Notes under the pieces: generated by a model | Seen by the model: only the letters and a program-made list of their open reading frames with translations | Databases searched by the model: none | Told to the model about the DNA's origin: nothing | Virus record (IMG/VR): IMGVR_UViG_3300042691_038073 | Span: 1 to 33,670 of that record | From: a virus | Direction: 5' to 3' (one strand) | DNA: 33,670 bases | Part shown: positions 7,937 to 30,862 of the stretch, in pieces | Layout: each line of letters starts with the position of its first letter | How positions within the stretch are numbered: position 1 is the first letter of the stretch | Position numbers and translations under genes: made by a program

Positions 7937-8227
7937 ATGGATCTAAAAAAGCTTGCCGAAGGTCTCCGATTGATCGCGGATGCGATTGATCCCGACTTGG
8001 ACCCTCCGACCACAGAGCCTGTGGTCGCTGAACCGAAGCCGAAGGCTATTGAGTTGTTGGACATTCAGAATCTCGCGGTCCAGCTGATCAAGGCCGGGTT
8101 CAAGGAAGAATTCAAAGGGTACCTGTCGAGGTATCAACTTCCTAACCTGTCCGCAGCCGACCCTGCGAGTTACCAAGAGATGTTCGACTCGTTGAACGCG
8201 ATGGTGAAGCACTACTGCAATGGCTAA
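7937..8227 (+). CDS. Hypothetical protein with C-terminal phage helical domain
   Basis: 96 residues. The N terminus is helical (MDLKKLAEGLRLIADAID), followed by a Pro/Glu-rich linker. The C-terminal half (LAVQLIKAGFKEEFKGYLSRY...LPNLSAADPASYQEMFDSL) follows a pattern I recall in small phage proteins encoded next to recombination and ssDNA-binding genes, in which a helical hairpin carries the form KxGxxxExxxLLxxYG...LS. It is the first gene of the rightward operon and overlaps the next by 8 bp. Function unknown; a replication accessory role is inferred from context. Confidence 0.65.
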   Translation: MDLKKLAEGLRLIADAIDPDLDPPTTEPVVAEPKPKAIELLDIQNLAVQLIKAGFKEEFKGYLSRYQLPNLSAADPASYQEMFDSLNAMVKHYCNG

Positions 8228-9272
8228 ACATAGCGATCTGCCTCCGTCCAGTTCCGACAAATGGTTGAAGTGTCACGGCTGGTTCAAGATGAATCGGTCA
8301 ATCGAAAGGAAGTCGTCTGCTGCGGCCGAAGAAGGCACGCAGGCTCATGAGCTTCTAGAAGATCATTTGGCTGGCAGGAAGAATCTGGCCGACCAACCGA
8401 ACTCCGAGATGGTCGATCATCTCTGGGGCTGTGCCGATTGGATTCAATCCCAGGTCGAGAAGAGGGACGGGGTTCTTCACTGCGAGGTCCGGGTTGACTT
8501 CGGGGAGAAGTTCGGCTTCGTCGATCTGACTGGGACCTCAGACATCGTTATTGTTTCGGAGGATTCGATCCTGATCGCCGACCTTAAATATGGGTTCGGT
8601 CAGGTAGAGGTCCAGAACAATACCCAACTTCTGACATATTTAGTCGGGGCTGTTCATCTATTCGGACCCCGACCTAATTACGAGATAGCTGTCCTTCAGC
8701 CCCGGGGCCATCACCCTGACGGCCCGATTCGGACCTGTTATGTAACGCCCGAGGAATTGACCGAATTCGAAGATTCCCTTAACCGGGCGATCACTTTGAA
8801 CTACAACAATGGTCAGTTAGTCGTGGGGGATCATTGCCGCCACTACTGCCCGGCTCTCGGGGTTTGCCCCGCTGTTGCTAAAGCTTCGATCGAGAGGTTT
8901 AAGATGACACCGATTGATGACCCTGGAATCGACCTTGATTCTGTGGCTCGAGAACTGCCTTTGATCAAGTCATGGTTAACAGCTATCGAGGCTAAACTCC
9001 TCGAGAACCTCGAAGCAGGGTCTGAATATTCGAATGTGAAACTCGTCCCGAAACGAGCGACGAGGAAATGGTCCGAGGATGTCGACATCGTGGACATCCT
9101 AACGAACTTCGCAAGCTTGGATGTGGTTGCTCCTCGGGTTCCGTTGAGCCCCAGCCAGGCGGAGAAGGTACTCGGCAAATCGACTTTCCGTAAGTCGCTA
9201 GCCGAGATTGTGGTCTCAGAGTCGAGCGGCATGACTCTGGGTTATGTGACTCAATTGACTGAAGGGAACTGA
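8220..9272 (+). CDS. DUF2800 protein, Cas4/RecB-like PD-(D/E)XK nuclease
   Basis: 350 residues. The DUF2800 signature is visible: an early Cys in WLKCHG, EGTQAHELLE (about residues 37-46), a Gly-rich GTSDIV, the nuclease motif IADLKYGFGQVEV and QLLTYLVGA, then a C-terminal Cys cluster CRHYCPALGVCP. This arrangement matches Cas4-like nucleases, which bind a 4Fe-4S cluster through one N-terminal and three C-terminal Cys. In phages DUF2800 is normally encoded just upstream of DUF2815 and a family A polymerase, exactly as here, suggesting end processing in recombination-linked replication. The gene overlaps the previous one by 8 bp. Confidence 0.85.
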   Translation: MAKHSDLPPSSSDKWLKCHGWFKMNRSIERKSSAAAEEGTQAHELLEDHLAGRKNLADQPNSEMVDHLWGCADWIQSQVEKRDGVLHCEVRVDFGEKFGFVDLTGTSDIVIVSEDSILIADLKYGFGQVEVQNNTQLLTYLVGAVHLFGPRPNYEIAVLQPRGHHPDGPIRTCYVTPEELTEFEDSLNRAITLNYNNGQLVVGDHCRHYCPALGVCPAVAKASIERFKMTPIDDPGIDLDSVARELPLIKSWLTAIEAKLLENLEAGSEYSNVKLVPKRATRKWSEDVDIVDILTNFASLDVVAPRVPLSPSQAEKVLGKSTFRKSLAEIVVSESSGMTLGYVTQLTEGN

Positions 9273-9273
9273 G

Positions 9274-9804
9274 ATGCAGATTGTTACTCCCCCCGGCCAA
9301 GCGGCTTACGCTTGGGTGTTCCGCCCCCAGAAGGCGATGCAGGAAGGCAAGCCGGACCAGTACTCCCTCACGATTCTGTGGGACGAGAATGACACCCGGT
9401 TGGCTAAGCTGAAAGAGGCGATCAAACAGGTAGCAGTAGCGAAGTTCGGGGCGAAAGCTACCACTATGCTGGAGAAGGGTCAGTTGAACAACCCCCTCCG
9501 GTCCGGCGATTCCAAGACCGAAGAGGACTTCCAGGGTAAGGTCTTCCTGACTGCCCGCAGCAACGAGAAGCCTCAGGTTGTTGATTCCGACACCGAGCCG
9601 TTGATGGACCTGATGGACTTCTATTCTGGCTGCAAGGCTAGGATGGACATCTACCTGTTCGCCTACGACAAGGCTGGGAATCGCGGAGTCTCTGCGATCC
9701 TGAACTCGGTCCAGAAGCTTGGGGACGGAGAGAGGAAAGCAGGTAGGCGGTCCGCCAAGTCCGCCTTCGGAGACCTTGACGAAGCCGACGAAGCACTGAT
9801 GTAA
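9274..9804 (+). CDS. DUF2815 protein, probable single-stranded DNA-binding protein
   Basis: 176 residues. The beta-rich N terminus (IVTPPGQAAYAWVFRPQ, then YSLTILWDEND) and later FYSGCKARMDIYLFAYDKAGNRGVSAILNSVQKL are characteristic of DUF2815, which is related to T7 gp2.5-like SSBs. The acidic C-terminal tail (GDLDEADEALM) is typical of SSBs that recruit partners. It starts one base after the DUF2800 stop with GGGAACTGAG as ribosome-binding region. It probably coats ssDNA for the polymerase and nuclease encoded alongside. Confidence 0.85.
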   Translation: MQIVTPPGQAAYAWVFRPQKAMQEGKPDQYSLTILWDENDTRLAKLKEAIKQVAVAKFGAKATTMLEKGQLNNPLRSGDSKTEEDFQGKVFLTARSNEKPQVVDSDTEPLMDLMDFYSGCKARMDIYLFAYDKAGNRGVSAILNSVQKLGDGERKAGRRSAKSAFGDLDEADEALM

Positions 9805-9921
9805 GTAGCAACAGGGCAATGTTACCCTTGACAGGGTATGTTGCCTCCCCCGGGGAGGGGGTAAGAAAAAATCCTGCCCCCTCCCTCCCCCTCTCAACGA
9901 AGTTTTTTGAAAGAAAAAATC
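9805..9921. promoter_or_regulatory. Intergenic hairpins and C-rich/A-T leader of the next gene
   Basis: TACCCT-TGAC-AGGGTA (about 9823-9838) forms a small stem. It is followed by a CCTCCCC/GGGGAGG palindrome (about 9844-9858), then a C-rich tract that on the minus strand reads as consecutive G runs. TTTTTTGAAAGAAAAAA (9903-9919) ends 2 nt before the ATG at 9922, identical in sequence and spacing to the element before the gene at 1268. This is the only large gap inside the rightward operon, so it may carry an internal promoter or attenuator. Confidence 0.5.
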
Positions 9922-10170
9922 ATGTCTCTCGAATACTCTGGCCGCGGTAGGCCTCCGACCGAAGAAGCAATCAAGGATATGAAGGCCCTGATCAAGGGCG
10001 TCGAAAAGGAGCCGGGAATCCCTTGCGCCCTGCTTGCTCGCAAGCTCGGGATCAAGTCGATTCGCGCTTCGCATCTGGCCCACCGTCTGGCTGAACAAGG
10101 ACTCCTGTCGATCGAATTGAACGGTCGCCAGATCCTCCTCAACCTGCCTGCTACTGGGAAACGGAAATGA
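9922..10170 (+). CDS. Small winged-helix-like protein
   Basis: 82 residues from ATG 9922 (MSLEYSGRGRPPTEEA); the TTG at 9907 lies inside the leader and is not used. The sequence IPCALLARKLGIKSIRASHLAHRLAEQGLLSIEL followed by NGRQILLNL fits a compact helix-turn-helix with a beta wing, as in small phage DNA-binding proteins. It is preceded by the repeated A/T leader and couples to the next gene through an ATGA overlap. A transcriptional regulator role is plausible but not shown. Confidence 0.6.
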   Translation: MSLEYSGRGRPPTEEAIKDMKALIKGVEKEPGIPCALLARKLGIKSIRASHLAHRLAEQGLLSIELNGRQILLNLPATGKRK

Positions 10171-10355
10171 CGACTGAACCGGAAACCATCCCCTACAAAG
10201 CCGCTGCGGCCACCGATGTCCTTCAGACCTTTCGTCGGTTCGGTTGGGTCCCTCCTAGCGAAGATCCAGCCTACCACGAGAAATGGGCGAAGTTCAAAGC
10301 CGATTCCCTGTTGATCAACGTCTCTAAAGGGACTTCCAGTGTCATGGCACATTGA
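10167..10355 (+). CDS. Hypothetical 62-residue protein
   Basis: Starts at ATG 10167 (MTTEPETIPYKAAAATDVLQ) in a 4-bp overlap with the previous stop and ends 17 bp inside the polymerase gene. The sequence FRRFGWVPPSEDPAYHEKWAKFK is polar with several aromatics and no recognised fold. The coupled spacing on both sides is the main support for translation. Confidence 0.5.
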   Translation: MTTEPETIPYKAAAATDVLQTFRRFGWVPPSEDPAYHEKWAKFKADSLLINVSKGTSSVMAH

Positions 10356-12264
10356 CTTTGAAACCTATTCCGAACGAGACCTGAAAGAATCCGGGGCTTT
10401 TCGGTATGCGGAAGATCCGAGTACTGAGGCCCTGATCCTTGCTTTCTCGGACGGGCATTCTGACCCGGTTGGTGTCGACCTTACTCAACCGGACTTCTTG
10501 TCGAAACTTGCTCCCCTCTTCGAAGCGATTCAGAGGGGAGCAATTATCTGTGCCCATAATGTCCAGTTCGAACGTCTGATCTGGACTAAGGTCTGTAAGT
10601 TCCCTGTGACCCCTAAACCCGAGCAATGGGACTGCACCGCTGCCCGAGCTCGGATGATTGCTATCCCTGGGTCTCTGGCTGGCGCAGCTAAGGCCCTGGG
10701 GATTAAAGCTCAGAAGGACGACCGAGGACAGGACCTGATTCAGATCTTCTCTAAGCCGTCGAAGAAGCACGGTCGAATTCATCCGAGAGATCGACCGTCC
10801 GAGTTCCAGGAATTCATCGAGTACTGTAAACAGGATGTTAGAGTCGAAGTCACCCTTGACAAGATCCTTCCCCCACTTTCGGATATAGAACGGGAAGCAT
10901 TCATCCTCGACTACAAGATCAATGACACCGGGATTCCGGTCAACTTGGAGCTTGTCAGAAAAGCTGACCAGTTTGTTGGAGAGTATTCCGAGAAGTTGTT
11001 GGACCAAGCTCAGAAGATCTCTGGGTGTCGGCCAACCCAACGGGAACGAACCCTTGATTATCTGAAGTCCCGGGGGTGGGAAGTTCCGAACCTTCAAGCC
11101 CAGACTGTCGAGGATCTCGCAGCGACCGAAGGGCTGCCTTCCGACCTGCGTGACCTCTTGAATGCCCGGATTGAACTCAGTCGGGCCGGCACTAAGAAGC
11201 TTAAGTCGATTCAAGCTTCCGTCTCGGAAGACTCTCGGATCCGTGGAGGCTTCTTGTTCTCGGCCGCATCGACTCGGAGATGGTCCAGTACTGGCGTTCA
11301 GTTTCATAACCTTCAGAAACCCGAAGGCGAATCGAACCCGGAAGCGGCTCTGTCCCTTCTTCAACATGCCCCGGATATCTTGACCCTGTTCTTCTCGAGG
11401 CCTCTGACCGTTCTAGCCCAAAGTATTCGGGGATTCTTTGAATCGCAAGAGCATCTCCTGATCGCTGACTATTCCGCAGTCGAACCTCGTGGTCTCGCTT
11501 GGCTAGTGAATGAACACTGGATGGTTGAGGCCTACAGGAACAAACAGGACGTCTACAAGGTCGCAGCATCGAAGGTCTTTCATGTTTCACCAGACCAAGT
11601 AACTGGTCCCCAGAGGTTCCTCGGGAAACAACTAACCCTCGGATGCAACTACGGAATGGGGCCTCCTCGGTTCGTTGAGACAGTCAAGAAGTTCGGTCGA
11701 ACGATTGAACTTGAAGATGCTGTTCAGGCAGTCTCGGGCTACCGTCGGTCGGTTCCGAAGATCATTCAGTTCTGGTATGACATCGAGAAGGCTTGCGTCA
11801 AAGCGACCCGGGACTGGAAGGATGTGACTTTGGGCCGCCTGAAAATTTCTCCCCGTCTTCTAGCAAACGGGGTGAAAGTACTGTTCGTCGATATGCCGTC
11901 TGGTAGGATCGCCTATCCGATCCCGAGCCTCGGACTCGAAGAGTTTAATGGCCAAAGCAGGCAGACCTTTGAGTTCTATACGCCGCTCGGGTCCGGATGG
12001 GTCAAGACCGATACTTTTGGAGGCTCACTCACCGAGAACATAATCCAGGCTCTGACTCGAGACATCCTGCGTGATGGGTTGATCGCTGCTGACAAGGCGG
12101 GGTTCAAGATCATCGGTCATGTTCATGACGAAGCGATCGCCGAAGGTCGGAAATCCGAGTCGGACCTTCGAGAATTCGAACGACTCCTATGCTCTTCGAG
12201 TCCTTGGGCCGAGGGCTTTCCGATTGCGACCGAAGGGGCGATTGCAAAGCGGTATCAGAAATGA
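10339..12264 (+). CDS. Family A DNA polymerase with 3'-5' exonuclease domain
   Basis: 641 residues from a GTG at 10339 with AAAGGGA upstream. The N terminus HIDFETYSE is the Exo I motif (D-x-E) of a DnaQ-like proofreading domain, with CAHNVQFE as the Exo II-like segment. In the polymerase domain, motif A is LLIADYSAVEPR (about residue 374), motif B KQLTLGCNYGMG (about 429) and motif C HVHDEA (about 593). There is no 5' nuclease domain. This is the short phage PolA type that usually accompanies DUF2800, DUF2815, VRR-NUC and SNF2 genes. It is the presumed replicative polymerase, which in this phage would have to accept any modified nucleotide made by the downstream enzymes. Confidence 0.92.
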   Translation: MSWHIDFETYSERDLKESGAFRYAEDPSTEALILAFSDGHSDPVGVDLTQPDFLSKLAPLFEAIQRGAIICAHNVQFERLIWTKVCKFPVTPKPEQWDCTAARARMIAIPGSLAGAAKALGIKAQKDDRGQDLIQIFSKPSKKHGRIHPRDRPSEFQEFIEYCKQDVRVEVTLDKILPPLSDIEREAFILDYKINDTGIPVNLELVRKADQFVGEYSEKLLDQAQKISGCRPTQRERTLDYLKSRGWEVPNLQAQTVEDLAATEGLPSDLRDLLNARIELSRAGTKKLKSIQASVSEDSRIRGGFLFSAASTRRWSSTGVQFHNLQKPEGESNPEAALSLLQHAPDILTLFFSRPLTVLAQSIRGFFESQEHLLIADYSAVEPRGLAWLVNEHWMVEAYRNKQDVYKVAASKVFHVSPDQVTGPQRFLGKQLTLGCNYGMGPPRFVETVKKFGRTIELEDAVQAVSGYRRSVPKIIQFWYDIEKACVKATRDWKDVTLGRLKISPRLLANGVKVLFVDMPSGRIAYPIPSLGLEEFNGQSRQTFEFYTPLGSGWVKTDTFGGSLTENIIQALTRDILRDGLIAADKAGFKIIGHVHDEAIAEGRKSESDLREFERLLCSSSPWAEGFPIATEGAIAKRYQK

Positions 12265-12557
12265 AGACCGTTAAAGAGTCAACACTCGAGAAGAGACTGA
12301 CACGCGCTGTCAAAGACTCTAATGGCCTGTGTATCAAACTCCCAGCGTTCCTCTATCGAGGCATCCCGGATAGACTGATCCTTCTTCCTGGGGCAAGGAT
12401 CTATTTCGTCGAATTGAAAGCGGTTCGAGGTCGGGTCTCACCACACCAAGCCCGCTTCATTAAATTTTTGCGAACCTTGGGGTTTCCTTCTGATATTATA
12501 CAAGGCGAAGACCACCTCAAGGAATTCATCAATGTTAACATTAAAAACTCAGTTTGA
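12261..12557 (+). CDS. VRR-NUC domain nuclease
   Basis: 98 residues from ATG 12261, overlapping the polymerase stop by 4 bp. The compact VRR-NUC fold is visible: STLEKRLTRAVKDSNGLCIKL, then FLYRGIPDRLILLPGARIYFVELKA, where the GIPD Asp and ELK Glu/Lys are the PD-(D/E)XK residues, then LSPHQ-like VSPHQARFIKFL. Stand-alone VRR-NUC proteins of this size cleave branched DNA in related systems. In phages they lie between PolA and an SNF2 helicase; here the thymidylate-synthase-like gene is inserted between the two. Confidence 0.88.
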   Translation: MKTVKESTLEKRLTRAVKDSNGLCIKLPAFLYRGIPDRLILLPGARIYFVELKAVRGRVSPHQARFIKFLRTLGFPSDIIQGEDHLKEFINVNIKNSV

Positions 12558-13359
12558 TGCTGTTCTAGCTGACATCCGGTATAAGTTTGCTCGTGCCCCT
12601 GCTATCGAATCTGGGTCTTGGCAATCAACCAAGGCTCCAGATAGGATGGTAGAGATCCTGAACTATTCCTTCTGCCTGGACCTTCCGACAACCGACCTCG
12701 ATCTGTACCGAAAGGTTTTCAAACCGAGCCTTCCGTGGGCCGATGAACATTTCGAACAGGAACGAGTCAGCGGAGACCCGATCAACCCGGGTCTGACTTG
12801 GCGGATCTGGCCATTCAGTAAGTCAGCAGATACCCATCGCCGAGACGGAGAAGTCGATCCCCAGTTCGACCATTCATATGCTGAACGGTACTGGCCGAAG
12901 TTCGCTGGCCTGACCCCGGATGGTGTTCTACCAGAGACACCCGAGGACTCGAAGATCCGACAAGGGGTTCGGTTTCCTTATGGTGATCTCGATGATCTAG
13001 TCGAACTTCTAGTGGCCGACCCTACGACCCGACAAGCCTATCTGCCTGTCTGGTTCCCGGAAGATCTCGGTGCAGCTCGTCTCAACAAACGAGTCCCTTG
13101 TACTCTTGGGTATCATTTCATATGTAGAGACTCTCGGCTTCACGTTGTGTACCCTATGCGATCCTGCGATTTTTTTCGCCATTTTTTAGATGATATCTAT
13201 CTGACCGTTCGACTGTTAATCCAGATCTTAAATTCTTGCAAACTGGCTGATCCGGCCAAGTGGCACCACATAGTTCCAGGGGCATTCACGATGCACATCA
13301 CTTCTCTTCATATGTTCGAATCAGATAGGCGAATCCTCTCAAGGAGCTGGGAGAAATGA
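12532..13359 (+). CDS. Thymidylate synthase-family enzyme, probable dCMP (hydroxy)methylase
   Basis: 275 residues. The ThyA signature is clear: LLVADPTTRQAYLPVWFPEDLG, then RVPCTLGYHF with nucleophile C190, and YPMRSCDFF with phosphate-binding R210. The Cys-to-Arg spacing (20) equals E. coli ThyA C146-R166. The ThyA uracil-reading Asn177 corresponds to D221 here (Cys+31 in both), and Asn-to-Asp at this site is the known determinant of dCMP specificity in T4 dCMP hydroxymethylase and engineered ThyA. The later SLHMF matches ThyA DTHLY (H260). The protein ends only 15 residues after that His, so it lacks the usual ThyA C-terminal segment that closes over folate. The neighbours include a dNMP kinase. 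Product 5-methyl- or 5-hydroxymethyl-dCMP is inferred. Confidence 0.8.
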   Translation: MLTLKTQFDAVLADIRYKFARAPAIESGSWQSTKAPDRMVEILNYSFCLDLPTTDLDLYRKVFKPSLPWADEHFEQERVSGDPINPGLTWRIWPFSKSADTHRRDGEVDPQFDHSYAERYWPKFAGLTPDGVLPETPEDSKIRQGVRFPYGDLDDLVELLVADPTTRQAYLPVWFPEDLGAARLNKRVPCTLGYHFICRDSRLHVVYPMRSCDFFRHFLDDIYLTVRLLIQILNSCKLADPAKWHHIVPGAFTMHITSLHMFESDRRILSRSWEK

Positions 13360-14672
13360 GGCAACTTCGTCCTTATCAGATCGCTGCAATCGACTTCATG
13401 AAACAGACGCCTAGGGGCGGGTTGTTCATTGACATGGGATTGGGCAAGACCGCAATAGCTCTGCACGCGATGTTGGATCTTCCGAAACCGATCCTTCTAG
13501 TTGGTCCTATTCGAGTGATCGAGAATGTCTGGCGCCAAGAAGCCGAACTCTGGCCAGCGACCCGAGGACTCCGGTTCTCGTTGGTCCGTGGGTCGAAATC
13601 CGAACGCGCACTTGCTCGCAAACAACCAGCAGATGTCTACTTGACGAACCCGGAGATCCTAGAAGAGTCCTTAAAAACAGGGATCTTTAAGACTTTGATC
13701 ATCGATGAGTCAAGCCAGTTCAAGTCCCATTCGACAATGCGGTTCAAAGCAATCCGAAAGCATGTCGGAAGCTTTAGTAATCGGTACATCTTGACCGGGA
13801 CTCCGAGTCCAAACTCACTACTCGATCTGTGGAGTCAGATCTTCATCCTCGACCAAGGGGAAAGACTCGAGACCTCTTTCTCGCGGTTCCGGGACAGGTA
13901 CTTTGAACCCTCAGACTACATGGGCTATTCGTACAAGCCGCGTGAAGGAACACTTAACCAGATCACATCGAAGATCAGTGACTTGATCTTTCGGGTCGAA
14001 GCCGCTGGGAACCTTCCTCCGCGTGAAGTGATCCGTAACATTGTCTCGATCGACCTGCCTGCACCAGCAAAGAAGGTTTACAAAGACATCGAAAAGCGAG
14101 CCTTTGCTCAACTCCTCCAGACCACAGTCACTGTGGCCTCTGCGGCTGCTGGCCTGATGAAATTGCGACAGGTCGCAAGTGGCTTCGTGTATGACGACAA
14201 CCAAGTTGCTACCGCTATCCATACAGAAAAGATCAAAGCGGTAGAGTCGATCCTCGAAGAGACTGGATCCCCGGTTGTACTGGTCTACCAGTTCCTTCAT
14301 GAACTTGCTGCTCTGAAGAAAGCCTTTCCCCAAGGCAAAAATTTAGAAACGCACTTGTTACCCGACTGGAATTCTGGTAAAATACCTCTTCTCTTCCTTC
14401 ATCCTCAGTCAGGAGGCCATGGATTGAACCTCCAACAAGGCTCTCACACGATGATCATCTTCTCTGCTTCTTTTTCATACGAATATATGGCACAGACAAT
14501 GGCCCGTATCGACAGGCAGGGACAGCAACATCCAGTCGTGTTTCATTTCCTCGTCGCGAAGGAGACTGTCGACGAACTCCTCTTGGAAGTCTTGGATTCG
14601 AAAGAAACTGTGCAATCAAATGTCCTCAACCTAGTCAGGAGATATGCAATTGGAAAGACCAGTCATTCTTGA
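13356..14672 (+). CDS. SNF2-family DEAD/DEAH helicase
   Basis: 438 residues, starting in a 4-bp ATGA overlap with the TS-like gene. Motifs: Q-like LRPYQIAAIDF, motif I MGLGKTA (residues 27-33), motif II DESS (about residue 119), motif III LTGTPSPN, motif V GGHGLNLQ and motif VI ARIDRQGQ. This is the short phage SNF2 helicase normally following VRR-NUC in PolA-type replication modules. It probably remodels or unwinds recombination intermediates with the neighbouring nucleases. Confidence 0.9.
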   Translation: MRQLRPYQIAAIDFMKQTPRGGLFIDMGLGKTAIALHAMLDLPKPILLVGPIRVIENVWRQEAELWPATRGLRFSLVRGSKSERALARKQPADVYLTNPEILEESLKTGIFKTLIIDESSQFKSHSTMRFKAIRKHVGSFSNRYILTGTPSPNSLLDLWSQIFILDQGERLETSFSRFRDRYFEPSDYMGYSYKPREGTLNQITSKISDLIFRVEAAGNLPPREVIRNIVSIDLPAPAKKVYKDIEKRAFAQLLQTTVTVASAAAGLMKLRQVASGFVYDDNQVATAIHTEKIKAVESILEETGSPVVLVYQFLHELAALKKAFPQGKNLETHLLPDWNSGKIPLLFLHPQSGGHGLNLQQGSHTMIIFSASFSYEYMAQTMARIDRQGQQHPVVFHFLVAKETVDELLLEVLDSKETVQSNVLNLVRRYAIGKTSHS

Positions 14673-15171
14673 AGGCCCGGACGGCGCGGGAAAATCAACC
14701 CTCGCTGCTTCCTTGGCCCGAAGCCTGAATCGCGAAGTGTTCCATAGCGGTGGACCTCCGGTCAACAAGTTGATCTTGGAGGATAAACTCGATGAAGTCG
14801 AGCAGAAGTTCGATACCCATGTGATAGATCGGGTTCCGCATATCTCGGAACCGATCTATTCCCGAGTGTCAGTTCGTCGGTCCTTCATTCCGGAATTTCA
14901 ACTTCATGATCGGTTGAAACGGTTTGACCCCATCGTGGTCTACTGCCGGCTTCCTCAAATGTCCGACATGTTCAAGGCGATTGATCGGTCGAAGAAGCCA
15001 CACAAACCGTCTCAGCATCTCGAAGAGGTCCTGAAGCAATACCGGGCAGTCGTTCAGGACTACGACATCACGATGGACCTTCTCTCAAAGAGCGGCGTCA
15101 CCGTGATCATGTATGCTTGGACCCAGATGCCGGTCCATAAACTCGTCGAGCGCCTAACATGTGCGGGTTGA
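14644..15171 (+). CDS. Thymidylate kinase-like deoxynucleoside monophosphate kinase
   Basis: 175 residues from ATG 14644 with AGGAG 3-7 nt upstream, overlapping the helicase end by 29 bp. The P-loop EGPDGAGKST lies at residues ~10-19. The DR motif D62-R63 in IDRVPHISEPIYS matches the substrate-binding DR(Y/S) region of dTMP kinases. The protein is shorter than cellular Tmk (about 210 residues), with a reduced lid. Phages that make modified nucleotides encode such kinases to raise the modified dNMP to the diphosphate; with the TS-like enzyme upstream, 5-substituted dCMP is the expected substrate (inference). Confidence 0.82.
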   Translation: MQLERPVILEGPDGAGKSTLAASLARSLNREVFHSGGPPVNKLILEDKLDEVEQKFDTHVIDRVPHISEPIYSRVSVRRSFIPEFQLHDRLKRFDPIVVYCRLPQMSDMFKAIDRSKKPHKPSQHLEEVLKQYRAVVQDYDITMDLLSKSGVTVIMYAWTQMPVHKLVERLTCAG

Positions 15172-16472
15172 TCCTTGCCCCAACGAAGTTCAAGTCGGAT
15201 GCAGTAACCCGGGCCCTTGACAAGATGAGCTACCGCGGTTTGTCCTCAAAGTTACTAATCAAGAACGGGTGGTGGCTGGGGCACACCCGACTCGCGATTC
15301 AAGACCTCTCCGAGGAGGGAGATCAACCCTTCGACCTTCCGAACTTCGACTCAGTAGCCTTCGTTGGGGAGTTCTTCAACCACAACGGAATCGGGGAACA
15401 ACCCTATCTGATCGAACTGTTGAAGTCGGAAGACTATGAAGGGTTCCACGGAGCAGATGGGTTCTGGTCAGTTGTACATGTCAAGCAATCCCGTGAAGTC
15501 GTTGCTATGACCGACCACCTGTCGATCAAGCCTCTGTACTGGTGGCCTGAACATCAAATCATCTGTTCCGAGATCTTCCCGATGTTCGAACTCGCGCCTG
15601 CCCCCGAGTTAGACGAGATCTACCTGTCGAATTGCATCAAGTTCGGGTACGACTATTCCGGTCGGACCGGGTTCAAAGGGATCTACCAACTTCCTCCAGG
15701 TGCGGCATTGACTCTGAAAGGCGGAAAATCAAACCTTCGGACCTACTGGAACTGGGACGAGGTCCCTCGGTTCTATGACCTCGACAGAGCGATTACTGAT
15801 TCAGTTTCGAACCGGCTAATCAGCGATCGTCCTGTGGCTCTATTGCTCTCGGGCGGGCTTGATTCTTCGATCATCTACTACACCTTGAAGTCACTCGGCC
15901 AGAAGGTCGCTTGCTTCTCTGTCGAGAACGGTGAATCCGAGTTCCTTCCTCCCGGAGTCCGGACCCTGCCTGTATCCGAGGTCTCTCTATCCGAAGCGGT
16001 CTCGATCATGCAGGCCCCTTTGGACCTAGGGTCACTGTTACCTCAGATCCAGTTGGCGAGAGCGGTCAAGGAGGCTGGCTACCATGTTTGCTTAACTGGA
16101 GACGGGGCTGATGAACTCTTCGGGGGGTATTCCCGGGCCCAAGAGTACGACAGTCAAAAGTCCGACGTCTTCTGCGAGCTCCCTTACTACCATCTTCCTC
16201 GACTCGATCGAGTGATGATGAGGGAGACGATCGAACTCAGATCACCCTTCCTAGCTCCTACGATCGTCGCTATGGCTCTATCGATCCCTTGGGGATATAG
16301 AACCCAGAAGCAGGAATTGAAAATCGCCGCAACAGGGCTAGTCCCGGAGAAGATCATTCAGCGGAATAAGCATCCTTTGAAGTCCGCTGCAGTGCTTCAG
16401 AATCAACTTCAACATCGTGTTCAACTTGTCCAGGAGTTTAGAAATGCTGTCTCGAGTCTACGAGTTCAATAA
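15159..16472 (+). CDS. AsnB-like glutamine-dependent amidotransferase (asparagine synthetase family)
   Basis: 437 residues, shorter than cellular AsnB (about 550). The class II glutamine amidotransferase domain starts with C2 immediately after Met (MCGLI), with the substrate motif HTRLAI and a GEFFN loop. The ATP-pyrophosphatase PP-loop SGGLDSS spans residues 231-237. GDGADELFGGYSR and ETIELRSPFLAP complete the synthetase domain. All catalytic motifs appear intact, so it should hydrolyse glutamine and transfer ammonia to an adenylated carboxylate. The gene overlaps the kinase (13 bp) and MazG (29 bp) genes. Inside a nucleotide-enzyme block a simple role in asparagine supply looks less likely than amidation of a nucleotide or DNA-base substituent, but the substrate is unknown. 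Confidence 0.88.
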   Translation: MCGLILAPTKFKSDAVTRALDKMSYRGLSSKLLIKNGWWLGHTRLAIQDLSEEGDQPFDLPNFDSVAFVGEFFNHNGIGEQPYLIELLKSEDYEGFHGADGFWSVVHVKQSREVVAMTDHLSIKPLYWWPEHQIICSEIFPMFELAPAPELDEIYLSNCIKFGYDYSGRTGFKGIYQLPPGAALTLKGGKSNLRTYWNWDEVPRFYDLDRAITDSVSNRLISDRPVALLLSGGLDSSIIYYTLKSLGQKVACFSVENGESEFLPPGVRTLPVSEVSLSEAVSIMQAPLDLGSLLPQIQLARAVKEAGYHVCLTGDGADELFGGYSRAQEYDSQKSDVFCELPYYHLPRLDRVMMRETIELRSPFLAPTIVAMALSIPWGYRTQKQELKIAATGLVPEKIIQRNKHPLKSAAVLQNQLQHRVQLVQEFRNAVSSLRVQ

Positions 16473-16830
16473 GTCGGTCGTTAAGATCGGTGATAGGTCT
16501 CTCAAGCCCTTTCACTATGGTGAACAGGCCTGGTTAGTCGGAGCAATCCAAGAAGAAGCGGGTGAGCTCGAGGTCGCCGACAAGTTGGTCGATCAAGTCG
16601 ATGCTTTGGTCGACACGGTGATCTTCGCCCTTGGAGGTCTGGCTCGCTTAGGGTTGACCGAAGAACAGGCAGAAGCGTGCTTCAATGCGGTGATGGATGC
16701 GAACTTCGAGAAGAAGCGCGGAACCAAAGAATCGCGGGCTGTCGAAGGCGTAGCCGATGCAATCAAACCTGAAGGCTGGGTCGGTCCGGAACAACGGATC
16801 AAAGCAATTCTAACCGGGAGTAAGGCATGA
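16444..16830 (+). CDS. MazG-like all-alpha nucleoside triphosphate pyrophosphatase
   Basis: 128 residues from ATG 16444, preceded by CAGGAG. The all-alpha NTP-PPase pattern is visible: QEEAGEL (E37, E38, E41), then VDQVDALVDTVIFALGGLARLG with D50, D53 and D57 in the second metal-binding helix, and the C-terminal FNAVMDANFEKKRG typical of phage MazG/PRA-PH-like proteins. Phage members hydrolyse selected dNTPs, for example dCTPase/dUTPase of T4 and MazZ acting on dGTP in Z-genome phages. Here removal of host dCTP would favour incorporation of a modified cytosine, which is inference. Confidence 0.82.
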   Translation: MLSRVYEFNKSVVKIGDRSLKPFHYGEQAWLVGAIQEEAGELEVADKLVDQVDALVDTVIFALGGLARLGLTEEQAEACFNAVMDANFEKKRGTKESRAVEGVADAIKPEGWVGPEQRIKAILTGSKA

Positions 16831-17129
16831 CTGTAGCACACTTCTTGACTGCAGACCAACAAAAATCCCTGCGTGACTTAGGTGGTCCATCTGGTCGACT
16901 TGGGCTCTATGCAACGATCGAGGATCTCGATGCAATGATTCAGATGATCAAAGCCGAGAATCCTTATGCGTTCCATGACCCCGATTCATTAGAGAAGCGG
17001 GTCTTCTTTAACCAACCTCTCGGCCCTGTCCCCTATGCGGGGTTCAAGGTCGCTGCTCCGAGGGACTCGGTCTTAGGTTCTTTGACCGCCCCGAAAGTGT
17101 CGAAACCTCGAGGAAGATCAAATGCCTAA
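16827..17129 (+). CDS. Hypothetical 100-residue protein
   Basis: Starts in a 4-bp ATGA overlap with the MazG-like gene and overlaps the methyltransferase start by 8 bp. The N-terminal half is helical (FLTADQQKSLRDLGGPSGRLGLYATIEDLDAMIQMI); the C-terminal half is Pro-rich and basic, ending KVSKPRGRSNA. No family recognised. It belongs to the nucleotide block by position only. Confidence 0.6.
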   Translation: MTVAHFLTADQQKSLRDLGGPSGRLGLYATIEDLDAMIQMIKAENPYAFHDPDSLEKRVFFNQPLGPVPYAGFKVAAPRDSVLGSLTAPKVSKPRGRSNA

Positions 17130-18519
17130 GTCTGGTGGATGGATTCATCGTAAAGCTAACTCTGACGAGGAACGGTTTGGGTTGTTGGACGACCCTAAGG
17201 GTCTGAAATACAGGACCCAACCTGTCTTCCAAGAACCCGTCGGGTCTCCCAAGAACTCGGGCTTAGTTGCTTTTGGGTTCACGAGTGGTGTTGGGTCAAT
17301 GTTGTACGGGGCCCAAGAGCTCGGGTTCAATGTTATAGGGAACTTAGAGTGGCGCGATTATTATAGATATAGGTCTGATCCGAAAGCGAAGAGTACTTTC
17401 CTAGAGAACTTTCCCGGGGCCTATATGTCCCGTGGGTTGAATGACACTCCGAAAGACTTGATTCCGCAGCAGATTGATTTCTTGGCGGGACACCCGGAAT
17501 GTGGTAGGTTCAGTACACTTTCTCATTCCGTAACTTTAGGATCTGGCGAATACCAAGCGACTCGGGGTTCTGATGTCAGTGATATTCCGATGTTCATTCG
17601 GATGATCGGGATCTTGCGCCCTCGATTCTTTTTGATGGATGACCTGCCTGCTTCCTTCGGTCCTTTTCCGATGGAAGACTATGTTCGACTCCTGCCCGAC
17701 TATGACCTGTTCCCAGAATGGGTCTCGAACTACGGATACGGAAACATCCAGAAGCAAAGAAATCGAATGTTCGTCGTGGGAGCTTTGAAATCTGAGAGGT
17801 TTGTATTCCGACCTGACGAAAAAACTCATCAACTCTCGATTCAAAGCATGATCGCAGACCTGATAGACTCTTCGGGACAGGGCACGGTTCCGAACCATGC
17901 GACTGTTGACCTCGAACGAGCCCCGGGAAGGTATGTGAACCTTCGATTCTACGGAGATCGGCTGAAATGGAAAGAACTTCAGGAGATCGCAGCCGCCGAA
18001 CTCCGGGGGAATGTTCACTATTACAGCCCGGAAGGAGAGAGGAAAGTCCGGCCCGGAACCACAAATCCTCGATGGGACGGACCATGCCCTGTATTGTCCG
18101 GGGGGTATGACCCAATTCATCCCATTCGTAGATTACCTTTGACTGTGCGGGAACGGGCCCGAATCCAAGGCTTCCCTGACACCTTCATTTTTTATTCAGA
18201 TCCCGAGGGACCTTATCGTAAAATATGGGAACCCTATGATTCAGACGGTCAAAGGGGAATCAAACAAACCGGAAAGGCCATGCCCCTTCAGTTCTGTACT
18301 TTCGTTGCTGGACAAGTGAAGGCTCATATCGAGGGACGTCCTTTCCAAACCGAGGGGGGTCGAATTCTTAAACCCAATCCGATGGTATCACAAGCGAAAC
18401 TGGACTTCTGTTCTACATCTGGATATGCTGATCAGGAAGCGGCCTGCCAAGCCTGTTGGTTGAAAGACTCCTGCCATATCCGCAACTCCAAAGGACTAAC
18501 ATGCGACTCGGAAACATAG
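17122..18519 (+). CDS. C5-cytosine DNA methyltransferase homologue with variant motifs
   Basis: 465 residues. The C5-MTase order is preserved: motif I-like AFGFTSGVGSMLYGAQELG with the SAM-binding E in NLEW; motif IV HPECGRFS with putative nucleophile C127; motif VI region MDDLPAS in place of the usual ENV; motif VIII QKQRNRMFVVG; a ~110-residue variable target-recognition region; motif IX RERARIQGFPDTF; motif X KQTGKAMP. The ENV Glu appears replaced by Asp and motif IV has PEC instead of PPC, so activity or substrate may differ from ordinary Dcm-type enzymes. A C-terminal extension carries five Cys in CSTSGY...AACQACWLKDSCH, possibly metal-binding. It may methylate or otherwise act on cytosine, including a pre-modified cytosine. 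Confidence 0.85.
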   Translation: MPKSGGWIHRKANSDEERFGLLDDPKGLKYRTQPVFQEPVGSPKNSGLVAFGFTSGVGSMLYGAQELGFNVIGNLEWRDYYRYRSDPKAKSTFLENFPGAYMSRGLNDTPKDLIPQQIDFLAGHPECGRFSTLSHSVTLGSGEYQATRGSDVSDIPMFIRMIGILRPRFFLMDDLPASFGPFPMEDYVRLLPDYDLFPEWVSNYGYGNIQKQRNRMFVVGALKSERFVFRPDEKTHQLSIQSMIADLIDSSGQGTVPNHATVDLERAPGRYVNLRFYGDRLKWKELQEIAAAELRGNVHYYSPEGERKVRPGTTNPRWDGPCPVLSGGYDPIHPIRRLPLTVRERARIQGFPDTFIFYSDPEGPYRKIWEPYDSDGQRGIKQTGKAMPLQFCTFVAGQVKAHIEGRPFQTEGGRILKPNPMVSQAKLDFCSTSGYADQEAACQACWLKDSCHIRNSKGLTCDSET

Positions 18520-18752
18520 GACTGCTTCAAAAAAGCGCAATCGTCACATGCCTGTATCTCAACGGTCGATCGACTCTTCGAGACTTGGCTGAATTCTCTC
18601 TGGTGCTTTTGGATCGAAAGACCCAAGAACAGAAACTGAAAGATTTCATTTACTACCAAGACACGATCTCGACTCGGTTGTCCGAAATGATCACAGAGGG
18701 GATGGTCGAACGGGTTGATCGGGGCGTCTACACTCTTCGGAGTAGAACGTGA
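18501..18752 (+). CDS. Small winged-helix-like protein
   Basis: 83 residues from ATG 18501 (MRLGNIGLLQKSAIVTCLYL); the upstream in-frame start at 18456 would overlap the methyltransferase by much more. The sequence NGRSTLRDLAEFSL...DTISTRLSEMITEGMVERVDRGVYTLR looks like a winged helix-turn-helix with a beta wing at the C terminus. It overlaps the upstream gene by 19 bp and couples by GTGA to dCMP deaminase. A local regulator is possible. Confidence 0.6.
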   Translation: MRLGNIGLLQKSAIVTCLYLNGRSTLRDLAEFSLVLLDRKTQEQKLKDFIYYQDTISTRLSEMITEGMVERVDRGVYTLRSRT

Positions 18753-19192
18753 GACCAACCAGGGATGATATCTACCTTCGAATGGCCGAATTGATTGCGG
18801 AACGTGGCACTTGCATTCGCAGGCAGGTCGGTTGTATATTAGTGGATTCTCGGGGTCGAGTGCTTTCTATGGGATACAACGGGGTCGCTGCTGGTCGACC
18901 TCATTGTTCCGAAGGATGCCCATGCCCCGGAGCCAAGTTCCCCTCGGGTCAAGGGCTCGATAAATGTGAAGCGATCCATGCTGAACAGAATGCGATCATC
19001 CTTTTGTCGGATCCTTGGTCTGTGGAAACTGCTTACATCACGACTACACCCTGTTTGTCTTGTGTTAAGTTACTCCTGGGGACCTCTTGCAAACGAATCG
19101 TTTGTCGGTCCCTCTATCCTCACCATGAGGCCATTCAGTGGTGGCAAGAATCGAACCGCGAATTCATTTTCTTTGGAGATAAAGATGTATGA
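18749..19192 (+). CDS. Deoxycytidylate (dCMP) deaminase
   Basis: 147 residues from a GTG start overlapping the previous TGA (GTGA). The zinc-binding and catalytic motifs are intact: HAEQNAI (H77, E79) and PCLSC (C102, C105). The Cys/His-rich insertion HCSEGCPCPGAKFPSGQ between strands is typical of phage and eukaryotic dCMP deaminases that also bind a structural zinc. The enzyme converts dCMP to dUMP, feeding dTTP synthesis and drawing down dCMP. In T4-type cytosine-modifying phages the same enzyme partners dCMP hydroxymethylase and dCTPase, so its presence here fits the proposed block. Confidence 0.92.
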   Translation: MRPTRDDIYLRMAELIAERGTCIRRQVGCILVDSRGRVLSMGYNGVAAGRPHCSEGCPCPGAKFPSGQGLDKCEAIHAEQNAIILLSDPWSVETAYITTTPCLSCVKLLLGTSCKRIVCRSLYPHHEAIQWWQESNREFIFFGDKDV

Positions 19193-20418: not shown

Positions 20419-20585
20419 GGGCTATCAAATTAGACGCCGATTACCGGCACACCACCACCGGCGTGGTCGTGATAATAATCGACGTTACTGCTGATTTTGT
20501 CCAGGTCTGGTGCGACGCGGAGAACCGGTTCTGGATGGTCGACCGGGACCGTTTTTCCCGCTACTTCCAGGAGATCCAGAAATGA
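20415..20585 (+). CDS. Hypothetical 56-residue protein
   Basis: Begins with a GTG at 20415 overlapping the previous TGA; the longer reading from 20364 overlaps the zinc-ribbon gene fully. The sequence RAIKLDADYRHTTTGVVVIIIDVTADFVQVWCDAENRFWMVDRDRF looks like a small beta-barrel. It ends in a 4-bp overlap with the GIY-YIG gene. Function unknown. Confidence 0.5.
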   Translation: MRAIKLDADYRHTTTGVVVIIIDVTADFVQVWCDAENRFWMVDRDRFSRYFQEIQK

Positions 20586-21424
20586 AATTCTACACCTACA
20601 TCCATAAGCGAGCCGATGACGGTGTCGTGTTCTATATCGGCAAAGGTCAGGGTAACCGGCACCAGGACACCAGAAGTCGCAATCGCTACTGGCGTAATGT
20701 CGTAGCGAAGCACGGCTTTACCGCTGAGATCTTGTCACATTGGCCCACGGAAGATGAGGCCTTCGAACATGAGAAACTGTTGATCGAGTGTTTTAGGGAC
20801 ATGGGGTATAAACTGGTGAACATGACCGACGGCGGCGAAGGTCCCTCGGGCATGGTGCACAGCGAAGAGACTCGTGCTCGCTTGAGCGAACAGTCGCGGC
20901 AATACTATGCCAACCCCGAGGCTCGTGCTCTTGCTGCCGAACAGTCGCGGCAATACTGGGACGACCCCGAGGCTCGTGCTCGCTTGAGCGAACAGATGCG
21001 GCAGCGGATGTCGTCGCCTGAGGCTCGCGCTCGCCAGAGCGAGAAGGTGCGGCAATACTGGGATGACCCCGAGGCTCGCGCTAGCCGGAGCGAACAGTCG
21101 CGGCAATACTGGGCTGACCCCGAGGCTCGCGCTCGCCAGAGCGAGAAGGTGCGGCAACAATGGTTATCTCCCGAGGCTCGCGCTCGCCGGAGCGAACAGA
21201 TGCGGCAATCCCATGCCAACCCCGAGGCTCGTGCTCGCTTGAGCGAACAGGCGCGGCAGCATATGTCGTCGCCTGAGGCTCGGGCTGCAGTCGGCGATCG
21301 TACACGCGGAAGCGTCTGGGTCACCAACGGAACAGCAAACCGTCAGTTAAAACCCGGCGCACCCATGCCCGCCGGGTTTCGTCGCGGCAAGGTTAAGCGG
21401 TCAGTTCCGTCGCGTGCTGCTTGA
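20582..21424 (+). CDS. GIY-YIG endonuclease with eight 17-residue NUMOD3-like repeats
   Basis: 280 residues from ATG 20582. The N terminus has YTYIHKR and VFYIGKGQGNR (GIY-YIG-type strands with catalytic Arg), followed by an ETxDEAFEHEKLLIE helix (E in TEDEAFEHEK) and the closing NMTDGGEG, matching phage homing-type GIY-YIG nucleases. Residues ~98-233 contain eight tandem repeats of the type RARLSEQSRQYYANPEA, similar to NUMOD3 DNA-binding motifs but unusually many. The C-terminal segment is basic (GRxxxGFRRGKVKRS). It overlaps the endolysin gene convergently by 32 bp at the border between rightward and leftward blocks, a typical position for a mobile nuclease. Confidence 0.85.
   Translation: MKFYTYIHKRADDGVVFYIGKGQGNRHQDTRSRNRYWRNVVAKHGFTAEILSHWPTEDEAFEHEKLLIECFRDMGYKLVNMTDGGEGPSGMVHSEETRARLSEQSRQYYANPEARALAAEQSRQYWDDPEARARLSEQMRQRMSSPEARARQSEKVRQYWDDPEARASRSEQSRQYWADPEARARQSEKVRQQWLSPEARARRSEQMRQSHANPEARARLSEQARQHMSSPEARAAVGDRTRGSVWVTNGTANRQLKPGAPMPAGFRRGKVKRSVPSRAA
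20873..21280 (+). repeat. Eight in-frame 51-bp tandem repeats inside the GIY-YIG gene
   Basis: Exactly 8 x 51 bp, each encoding 17 residues ending PEA. The GAGGCTCG(C/T)GCTCGC and AGCGAACAG parts are highly conserved at the DNA level, including synonymous positions. The middle codons vary (YYAN, YWDD, RMSS, YWAD, QWLS, SHAN, HMSS). The similarity at the DNA level indicates recent copy-number change or gene conversion. Confidence 0.95.
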
Positions 21425-21917
21425 CCGATGCGACGCGGTTCAGCCAGCCTTGGAGGAACCGCTGTTGCGTGGCATCGCTTTCGACGAGACCGTGATAGAA
21501 CTCGGACTTGACAGTGCTGAACATCTCGATCACCTCGAGCGGATTCTTCGCGGCGACAGCCGCCAGCGTTGCAGGGCCAATCGCGCCGTCGGGGTTCGCC
21601 CCGACAGCTTTCTGCAGGAACTTGGCAGCCCTGCCAGGGCCAGCGTTCACCGCGAAGTCGAACACGAGATAGTCGACACCGTCGGGCAGTTGGTCGCCTT
21701 TTATTGCGTCCCAGTAGCGCGTCTTATATAGAGGTTCCACCTGCTCTTTTGTGAGCGCCCGCATCTCGTCTTTTGTGACCGGGCGTTTGAGCCAATCTTC
21801 CCAAGTTTTTTGCGTTACGCCTAGCATAGTGGTTCCGCCCCGATCGAGGGGATCGTCTACAAACCCGCCCTCGGACTCGAGCATGTGGTCGAAAGCCGCG
21901 CTCCAATTCTCTTTCAT
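21393..21917 (-). CDS. Endolysin, GH108 N-acetylmuramidase-type
   Basis: 174 residues. The N terminus LESEGGFVDDPLDRGGTTMLGVTQKTW is the GH108 signature, with the catalytic Glu in SEGG (E16). The middle has YWDAIKGDQLPDGVDYLVFDFAVNAGPGRAAKFLQ. The second half, GANPDGAIGPATLAAV, is the small peptidoglycan-binding domain that follows GH108. No signal peptide is visible, so release depends on the holin encoded just upstream; the ATG overlaps the holin stop (ATGA). It cleaves the glycan strands of the cell wall at lysis. Confidence 0.9.
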   Translation of the reverse strand: MKENWSAAFDHMLESEGGFVDDPLDRGGTTMLGVTQKTWEDWLKRPVTKDEMRALTKEQVEPLYKTRYWDAIKGDQLPDGVDYLVFDFAVNAGPGRAAKFLQKAVGANPDGAIGPATLAAVAAKNPLEVIEMFSTVKSEFYHGLVESDATQQRFLQGWLNRVASVKQHATELTA

Positions 21918-22402
21918 TTCATTCCTTTCACAAGTGCGTCAGTCTTGTCCTTCGACGACTTTGAAGAGCCGAAGAAGAAGTTGAAAAAACCCGTCATCAC
22001 CGTTCCAATCAACACGCCCAGGATAGTGTCCGCGAACCGCGTGCCGCTTTGAGGGACTTCTCCGAAGGTGACAAAGGCGAAGTAGGTCGCGGCGAAGATG
22101 CTCCACGCAGCGGTGAACAGGTAGATGAAGTTCTTCGCGAACCAACTGTCCTGTTTCAGCGCCTCGATCTGCATCGCCCGGGCGTTGGCGCGATCTTCGT
22201 TCTCAAGCTCGAACTGGCGCAGATCTATCTCGGCCAACTTCATAGCCGCCGCCGGATCGGACTGGATCGCAGCCGCGACGCTTTCTTGGTCGGGTGCGCA
22301 GCCGAGCTTGTCGGCGATCGCCTTAACAGCCATGCCAGCCATTGGGCCACCGACGGCTGTTGCCAGCCCCGGCGCTACAGTCTTGAGTAGATCGAGCAAC
22401 AT
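21914..22402 (-). CDS. Holin of the three-transmembrane GTA type
   Basis: 162 residues. Residues ~1-30 are a weakly hydrophobic Gly/Ala-rich segment (LLKTVAPGLATAVGGPMAGMAVKAI). A charged helix follows (DLRQFELENEDRANARAMQIEALKQDSWFAKNF split by short gaps), and then two strong membrane helices (IYLFTAAWSIFAATYFAFV and TILGVLIGTVMTGFFNFFF), with a Lys-rich C terminus. This matches my memory of the GTA_holin_3TM family. It permits endolysin release; both neighbours overlap it by 1-4 bp. Confidence 0.82.
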   Translation of the reverse strand: MLLDLLKTVAPGLATAVGGPMAGMAVKAIADKLGCAPDQESVAAAIQSDPAAAMKLAEIDLRQFELENEDRANARAMQIEALKQDSWFAKNFIYLFTAAWSIFAATYFAFVTFGEVPQSGTRFADTILGVLIGTVMTGFFNFFFGSSKSSKDKTDALVKGMK

Positions 22403-22857
22403 CAGTCAGTCCCTCCTGCTTTGATGTCCGAGCCACGCTGAGTTGGGCGCAGCACGGAATGATCACTACCCTTCGAGACCGTGACACGCCCGTCAGGGCC
22501 AACGTCAACATTCATCGGTTGCTCACGCTCCGAGATCCGTTCGATCAAGGTCTCGATGATCTTGAATTCCGGCTTCTCTTGCTTGGGCGCGGTGCCAGCG
22601 ATGCCGTTCAGCATGCTGATCAGCGCGGTCAGCGACGCACCCAACAGCCCCATCACCGCTGCGATCTTCTCGTTCTCGAGCACGACGCTCGCGCCTACGC
22701 CGAGCACGACGATCAGCGTGATGTAGAACAGTCCTTGCCGCCCGATCGCCTTGCCTGCGACGTCCTTGGCCGAAGCCTGGGCCTGCAGCTTGTCGAGCTC
22801 AATTTTGGCCTGGATCTTAAGTTCCCGAATGCTCGGGCGCGGTTGCATGTCGTCCAT
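22402..22857 (-). CDS. Two-helix membrane protein of the lysis block
   Basis: 151 residues. An N-terminal charged coiled-coil-like region (IRELKIQAKIELDKLQAQA) precedes two hydrophobic segments (LFYITLIVVLGVGASVVL and AAVMGLLGASLTALISML), and the C-terminal ~70 residues are polar. The location between tip protein J and the holin suggests an antiholin, second holin or lysis regulator; no clear spanin genes were seen here. Start at ATG 22857 lies 2 bp after the J stop. Confidence 0.65.
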   Translation of the reverse strand: MDDMQPRPSIRELKIQAKIELDKLQAQASAKDVAGKAIGRQGLFYITLIVVLGVGASVVLENEKIAAVMGLLGASLTALISMLNGIAGTAPKQEKPEFKIIETLIERISEREQPMNVDVGPDGRVTVSKGSDHSVLRPTQRGSDIKAGGTD

Positions 22858-22859
22858 GT

Positions 22860-25922: not shown

Positions 25923-26281
25923 GCGAGCACCTCGTAGATCCCTTCGATCTTCATCACTCGCCGCACGATGCGCATCGGTTGCAGCACCGCGCTCCCAGGC
26001 TTGTGCGCGGTGTGAAGCAGCGTCGGTTCTGGCGTATCGAGGCAAAGCAGACCGGCGTGCAGCAGCGGCGAGTCTGGCCGCATCAACACGACCAGACCAT
26101 CCCGCAGGGGCACCCCCGGCGGCACTCGCTGCGCCCACTCCCGGCGACGCTCCATCAACGCTGCGTGGTTCTCGATGTCCGGCAGGTCTTTCTCGATTCC
26201 GAACTCGCGTGCAGTGACGTACTGCACCAGATGGATGCAGGAGGCGAACTCTTTCCCAACGTACTTGGTGGCCCAACTCAT
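25919..26281 (-). CDS. NlpC/P60-family tail tip assembly protease, K-like
   Basis: 120 residues. GKEFASCIHLVQYVTAREFGI carries the putative nucleophile Cys15; PDSPLLHAGLLCLD carries the His of the pair, the typical NlpC/P60 C...H layout. It is shorter than lambda K because the Mov34/JAB half is absent. The start overlaps the DUF1833 stop by one base (TGATG). Such proteins process or assemble the tail tip and may cut the peptide cross-links during entry. Confidence 0.85.
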   Translation of the reverse strand: MSWATKYVGKEFASCIHLVQYVTAREFGIEKDLPDIENHAALMERRREWAQRVPPGVPLRDGLVVLMRPDSPLLHAGLLCLDTPEPTLLHTAHKPGSAVLQPMRIVRRVMKIEGIYEVLA

Positions 26282-26751: not shown

Positions 26752-26752
26752 G

Positions 26753-30853: not shown

Positions 30854-30862
30854 GGTGGTGTC

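Follow-up and report, generated by a model that had tools for sequence, protein, structure and literature searches.

In bacteriophage T4, four support genes, encoding the deoxycytidine monophosphate (dCMP) hydroxymethylase gp42, a deoxynucleoside monophosphate (dNMP) kinase, a dCTPase and a dCMP deaminase, are alone sufficient for DNA with 5-hydroxymethylcytosine (5hmC). The signature of gp42 is an Asp or Glu residue three positions ahead of the catalytic Cys (Asp145 of T4, which activates water; PMC6400193). In the MetaGPA contigs, shown to carry modified cytosine, the genes of a thymidylate synthase (TS) with Asp at position 177 (D177), of MazG and of a dCMP deaminase surround that of a carbamoyltransferase, the modified base being 5-carbamoyloxymethyl-dC (PMC8670742). 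In the third system, published in December 2025, carboxy-S-adenosylmethionine (carboxy-SAM) produced by CmoA serves CmoX in the carboxymethylation of cytosine, and glycine is ligated by the AsnB-like CmoY, the bases of Synechococcus phage S-B43 being 5-carboxymethyl- and 5-glycylcarboxymethyl-cytosine; a cluster of ligases bearing a GATase domain was also reported beside CmoX, and soluble enzyme was not obtained there (PMC12783734). Here we describe a run of genes at positions 12532-19192 of the IMG/VR virus record IMGVR_UViG_3300042691_038073, the whole of which (33,670 bases) is referred to below as the window. A TS-like enzyme, an AsnB-like ligase and a C5-cytosine-methyltransferase (C5-MTase)-like protein are encoded in it together with a dNMP kinase, a MazG-like pyrophosphohydrolase and a dCMP deaminase, and we consider it likely that the first three act together in a pathway of cytosine hypermodification. 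Its product is most likely a base derived from 5-hydroxymethyl-dC and carrying a nitrogen group installed by the AsnB-like ligase.

The locus has the same set of support functions as T4. Like the MetaGPA contigs, it combines a D177 TS, a MazG-like (PRA-PH) protein and a dCMP deaminase around a tailoring enzyme, which is, however, an AsnB-like ligase and not a carbamoyltransferase. With the CmoX/CmoY system it shares an AsnB-type ligase beside a C5-MTase homologue in which a basic residue replaces the Asn of motif X. The first-pass annotation of the window had found no known pathway that pairs AsnB with a C5-MTase; this does not hold, as CmoX/CmoY is a published precedent (PMC12783734), though the window differs from it in the clades of both proteins and in context. 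A literature search found no paper linking AsnB with a dCMP hydroxymethylase in phages.

Linkage of the cassette genes across viruses

The neighbouring genes were detected with hidden Markov models built for this analysis, and the linkage counts were limited to loci flanked by 3 kb or more on both sides; they are counts of contigs, some of which are related. The C5-MTase-like protein of the window retrieved 13 viral loci as a single query, and an alignment query retrieved 36 viral loci, with two more in bacterial metagenome-assembled genomes (MAGs). All 24 well-flanked loci of this clade of uncultured viruses carry both AsnB-like and TS-like genes, and since they represent 23 clusters at 90% identity and 16 gene orders, the link is not the simple inheritance of one block. 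As to the AsnB-like ligase, the window protein, used as a single query, matched nothing in the viral contigs scanned, and alignment-based searches were needed. They yielded 365 viral relatives, the best 80 of which (those most similar to the query) were kept; TS-like and dCMP deaminase genes are present in each of the 43 loci with enough flank (29 clusters at 90%), and the dNMP-kinase-like gene adjoins AsnB again in relatives. The association presumed in the first-pass annotation is thus conserved, which strongly supports the genes' acting together. The reverse search, with the TS-like protein, gave 549 relatives; among the 63 well-flanked loci of the best 80, again the most query-like, AsnB is present in only eight. 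It follows that AsnB depends on the TS-like gene and not vice versa, an asymmetry which would fit AsnB being a tailoring module set on the TS cassette as its platform, in the manner of the carbamoyltransferase of PMC8670742.

No close relative of the window AsnB was found in 50,697 phage records, and therefore a cultured isolate with the cassette is not at hand. Many relatives possess a separate ThyX. In most marine loci the TS-like, AsnB and deaminase genes are adjacent, and a search of many such loci revealed no DNA transferase. A third partner in part of the loci is an N6/N4-MTase-like protein (PF01555), the family to which the 28-42 bit "C5-MTase" matches in marine loci actually belong; in one contig (L025, 9962-12271) this protein, encoded by a separate gene in other cassettes, is fused to the C5-MTase-like one. 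The supposition that the cassette invariably includes a methyltransferase was rejected, as neither kind of MTase was found in large contigs with TS, AsnB and deaminase genes. In the marine locus L139 (11741-12568) and some others with TS and AsnB, the dCMP deaminase gene is immediately followed by one resembling a sugar-nucleotide 6-dehydrogenase, and it is conceivable that a uronic acid is amidated by AsnB there.

Conserved residues of the three central enzymes

The TS-like protein scores 22.3 bits against Pfam Thymidylat_synt, just below the cut-off of 24.3. It possesses catalytic Cys190, Asp213, Asp221 (at the position of E. coli TS Asn177) and His260, and ends shortly past the region of His207, being devoid of the C-terminal tail of TS. 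The survey of its residues covered 115 TS-like proteins, 105 linked to AsnB and 10 unlinked, which were numbered by an E. coli TS sequence used as a position ruler only. The Asp that the first-pass annotation had read at the base-recognizing position occurs in 105/105 linked and 10/10 unlinked proteins, and Cys146, Asp169, Asp177 and His207 are invariant whether or not AsnB is present. An Asp at the position of T4 Asp179, the catalytic Cys and the lack of the tail are shared with gp42, from which the protein differs in belonging to another subfamily (PHROG_160), while AsnB tailoring takes the place of the T4 glucosyltransferases. The Ser/Thr and Tyr residues corresponding to the water-placing pair of T4 are adjacent in the alignment, not two positions apart. 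An Arg before the catalytic Cys was considered as a marker of AsnB-specific TS and rejected, since the unlinked proteins have it too.

The AsnB-like ligase has the two-domain fold of asparagine synthetase B: the top Protein Data Bank match of its AlphaFold2 (AF2) model, with a predicted local distance difference test score (pLDDT) of 89.5, is E. coli AsnB (1ct9). However, it scores only 171.3 bits against TIGR01536 (asparagine synthetase B), the cut-off being 267.1. It had been called intact, and this is true of Cys2 (the equivalent of Cys1), the PP-loop and the glutaminase Gly-Glu, but not of the oxyanion-hole Asn74, replaced by Val69, or of Glu348, replaced by Asp315. Among the 115 family members surveyed, Cys1, Gly75 and Glu76 are present in all and Asp98 in 110, whereas Asn74 is replaced by Val in 102 and Glu348 by Asp in every member covering that position; Arg49 is missing in much of the family, chiefly in marine loci. 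The preservation of the former residues along with the change of Asn74, Arg49 and Glu348 indicates that the glutaminase site is remodelled and not merely dead.

The AF2 model of the C5-MTase-like protein (pLDDT 76) is matched by Foldseek to M.HaeIII, M.HhaI and CmoX (8yf3), that is, the protein has the C5-MTase fold. The variant motifs ascribed to it in the first-pass annotation were borne out by the tally over the clade. In the window, the catalytic motif is HPEC (Cys127), DDLP replaces ENV, QxRxR is kept, Lys385 stands in place of the motif-X Asn, and the tail contains a conserved Cys-rich motif of four residues (C430, C442, C445, C451). Clade members have, with few exceptions, HPEC (a few HPDC or IPDC) and DDLP or DNLP, and Lys in place of the motif-X Asn wherever the motif could be resolved; among the ordinary C5-MTases taken as controls, those whose motif X is readable nearly always have Asn there and never Lys. 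Three contigs contain a C5-MTase homologue that overlaps or abuts a TS-like gene, and no AsnB. In L205 (6788-7906) the homologue has the ordinary Asn at motif X, but in L057 (5374-6375) and L058 (9992-10984) it has Lys, with QPSC replacing HPEC; therefore, Lys tends to go with AsnB but is not strictly tied to it. Conserved codons of cassette genes have become sites of mobile elements: an intein-like insert lies exactly at the catalytic HPE/C of one C5-MTase ORF (open reading frame; L034, 9932-12091), and a LAGLIDADG-like insert within one TS-like gene (L024, ORF 13036-14508).

Gene layout of the window

The run comprises nine ORFs, all on the + strand, each overlapping its successor (Table 1). 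ORF coordinates and profile searches agree with the first-pass annotation in the places, overlap and common direction of the six enzymes, and profile searches likewise recovered the replication genes that it had named around them. For the MazG-like protein, the ATG at 16444 is a more likely start than the GTG at 16417, which opens a longer ORF. Terminase and capsid genes were not seen in the window, and the record is therefore probably an incomplete genome or a fragment.

Table 1. Features of the window discussed in the text, with the matches on which their assignment is based
Feature	Position	Strand	Evidence
Replication module hosting the cassette: DUF2800 nuclease-like, Enc34-type ssDNA-binding (formerly DUF2815), PolA, VRR_NUC	8220..12557	+	Profile search
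TS-like pyrimidine C5 enzyme, predicted dCMP-directed	12532..13359	+	PHROG_160, 96 bits; best PDB match CMP 5-hydroxymethylase MilA
SNF2-like helicase, replication-module gene within the run	13356..14672	+	Pfam SNF2-rel_dom, 65.7 bits
P-loop dNMP kinase-like protein	14644..15171	+	PHROG_761 "thymidylate kinase", 47.5 bits
AsnB-like ATP-dependent ligase with class-II amidotransferase domain	15159..16472	+	Asn_synthase, 121.9 bits, plus GATase
MazG-like NTP pyrophosphohydrolase (PRA-PH), candidate dCTPase	16444..16830 (ORF from 16417)	+	PF01503, 23.6 bits, cut-off 21.3
100-aa protein overlapping both neighbours	16827..17129	+	No family match in profile searches (Pfam, PHROG)
C5-MTase-like protein with variant motifs	17122..18519	+	DNA_methylase, 54 bits
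Small winged-helix-like protein	18456..18752	+	Weak HTH matches, all below cut-off
dCMP deaminase	18749..19192	+	dCMP_cyt_deam_1, 63.9 bits; PHROG_174, 136.7 bits
GIY-YIG-nuclease-like start followed by about nine PEARARxSEQxRQ repeat units	20510..21424		No Pfam match
Lysis and tail genes (Glyco_hydro_108 endolysin, tape measure protein)	21393..33639	-	

Proposed pathway and alternative explanations

The presence of Asp177 in all 115 TS-like proteins, together with MazG, dNMP kinase and dCMP deaminase (the first and the last occurring as in the contigs of PMC8670742), supports the cytosine-directed cassette proposed in the first-pass annotation. Judging from the known families, the TS-like enzyme should put a one-carbon group, most likely hydroxymethyl, on C5 of dCMP, the kinase would raise the 5-modified dCMP to the triphosphate, the MazG-like protein would clear the competing dCTP, and dCMP deaminase would supply dUMP for thymidylate. 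The modified nucleotide would be incorporated by PolA. The AsnB-like ligase is supposed to spend ATP on installing a nitrogen-bearing group, amide or amine, both the identity of this group and the level of its installation (nucleotide or DNA) being speculative. In the clade of the window, the C5-MTase-like protein would flip out cytosine and cooperate with AsnB, and the Lys of its motif X probably serves to bind an anionic group, either of the cofactor or of the substrate; the cofactor could be S-adenosylmethionine (SAM), carboxy-SAM or another donor, and the target either the 5hmC oxygen or C5.

This pathway is supported by the CmoX/CmoY precedent, in which C5-modified cytosine in DNA is shown to be a substrate of AsnB-type ligases (PMC12783734), and by the conservation of AsnB Cys1 and the C5-MTase Lys throughout. 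We tentatively suppose that its product belongs to a new class of DNA bases, in which a folate-derived hydroxymethyl group on cytosine is converted to an amide or amine by an AsnB-family ligase with a remodelled glutaminase site, the former C5-methyltransferase of the window clade having turned into a transferase that modifies 5hmC and uses an anionic donor; such bases would be common among uncultured viruses, with no example yet in cultured phages. Any one detailed chemistry of the pathway is doubtful. Several observations weigh against the proposed scheme. The position of T4 Asp145 is occupied by Arg in 115/115 TS-like proteins (Arg187 in the window). Asn74 of AsnB is mostly lost and Arg49 is lost in part, and the nitrogen may therefore come from a donor other than glutamine. 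Finally, no C5-MTase, N6/N4-MTase or CmoA was found in two T4-like contigs of 157 and 115 kb, possibly incomplete, that carry TS, AsnB and deaminase genes; hence the C5-MTase step is not general, there is no known carboxylate-adding enzyme in these contigs, and AsnB may act there on the TS product without a C5-MTase.

One alternative is that the C5-MTase-like protein uses carboxy-SAM made by the CmoA of the host and carboxymethylates cytosine, at C5 or at the 5hmC oxygen, AsnB amidating the carboxylate. The Lys of the clade, absent from the controls, indeed lies at the position of SpCmoX Arg350 (Asn304 of M.HhaI), where Lys is also present in engineered M.MpeI N374K; the CmoA of E. coli is by itself enough to supply SpCmoX in vivo, and the ligases reported beside CmoX include the GATase type (PMC12783734). 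Nevertheless, we consider this explanation unlikely. CmoA was not found in the window, which is a fragment; the 24 related contigs searched whole gave a single match of 10.6 bits, far under the cut-off, and the two MAGs holding cassette contigs, possibly incomplete or misbinned, gave none. A 5hmC platform offers no free C5, and L057 and L058 possess the Lys with no AsnB in their contigs. The window AsnB has both the Asn_synthase and GATase domains of a GATase-type CmoY, but in the tree window-type and CmoX-linked ligases form two separate clades with 99/100 support each. The latter are exemplified by Streptomyces phage TurkishDelight, where a C5-MTase, an AsnB-like amidotransferase and a CmoA-like carboxy-SAM synthase are encoded in a row (gp123-125); the synthase scores 89.5 bits against TIGR00740, below the cut-off, and matches PDB 4gek, and gp124 is 27% identical to the window AsnB over the full length. 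TurkishDelight-like ligases are in every case accompanied by CmoA and CmoX, and never by a TS-like gene. The C5-MTase-like proteins also form a clade of their own, with Lys where the CmoX proteins of S-B43, TurkishDelight and PaBG have Arg, HPEC and not SPPC, and DDL and not ENV; the presence of CmoA in the genome is usual for CmoX, though not strict. The window clade is always accompanied by the TS-like gene and usually by those of MazG, kinase and deaminase; such a gene set is missing from the surroundings of CmoX in the loci examined. Considering the TS-like linkage, the missing CmoA, the other motifs and the separate AsnB clade, the plain CmoA/CmoX/CmoY pathway was dropped as the main explanation of the window.

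In Erwinia phage vB_EamM_Y3 (L018, 5971-8562), CmoA is located next to a short AsnB-like ligase, followed by a 2-oxoglutarate-Fe(II) oxygenase (PF13640), and in Yersinia phage fHe-Yen9-02 (L021) it also adjoins a short AsnB-like ligase. No C5-MTase was seen near these genes in either phage, and they may represent a carboxy-SAM system with another target.

Alternatively, AsnB could activate 5-hydroxymethyl-dCMP and swap its hydroxyl for ammonia or an amine (to give, for example, 5-aminomethyl-dCMP) prior to polymerisation, the C5-MTase-like protein being a separate accessory. The marine loci described above, with their adjacent TS, AsnB and deaminase genes and often no DNA transferase found, are in line with this. 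Even so, the C5-MTase clade always occurs with AsnB (24/24 well-flanked loci), and adenylation of an alcohol is not known to us for any PP-loop ligase, which leaves this explanation improbable as well.

Plain replacement of cytosine by 5hmC, for which the T4 support genes are enough, with AsnB and the C5-MTase-like protein serving unrelated ends (host metabolism, orphan anti-restriction methylation), is very unlikely, because both strictly co-occur with the TS-like gene across rearranged gene orders and the variant motif X is unexpected of a SAM-dependent methylase. Ordinary nucleotide metabolism without DNA modification, in which the TS-like enzyme makes dTMP, could be suggested by its weak similarity to TS but is hardly credible in view of the invariant Asp177 and the separate ThyX of many relatives.

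To return to the cytosine hypermodification pathway, we infer that the modification may protect viral DNA from restriction. The cassette defines a specific set of genes, open to experiment, for a putative new DNA base of many uncultured viruses. If the proposal is true, the hydroxymethyl handle and the amide-forming ligase, both known separately, are joined in one pathway. The filter of SPPC plus Arg, applied to carboxymethyl systems, misses this whole clade. The cassette offers candidate enzymes for DNA labelling chemistry, and the base would be a new target for host defences to consider.

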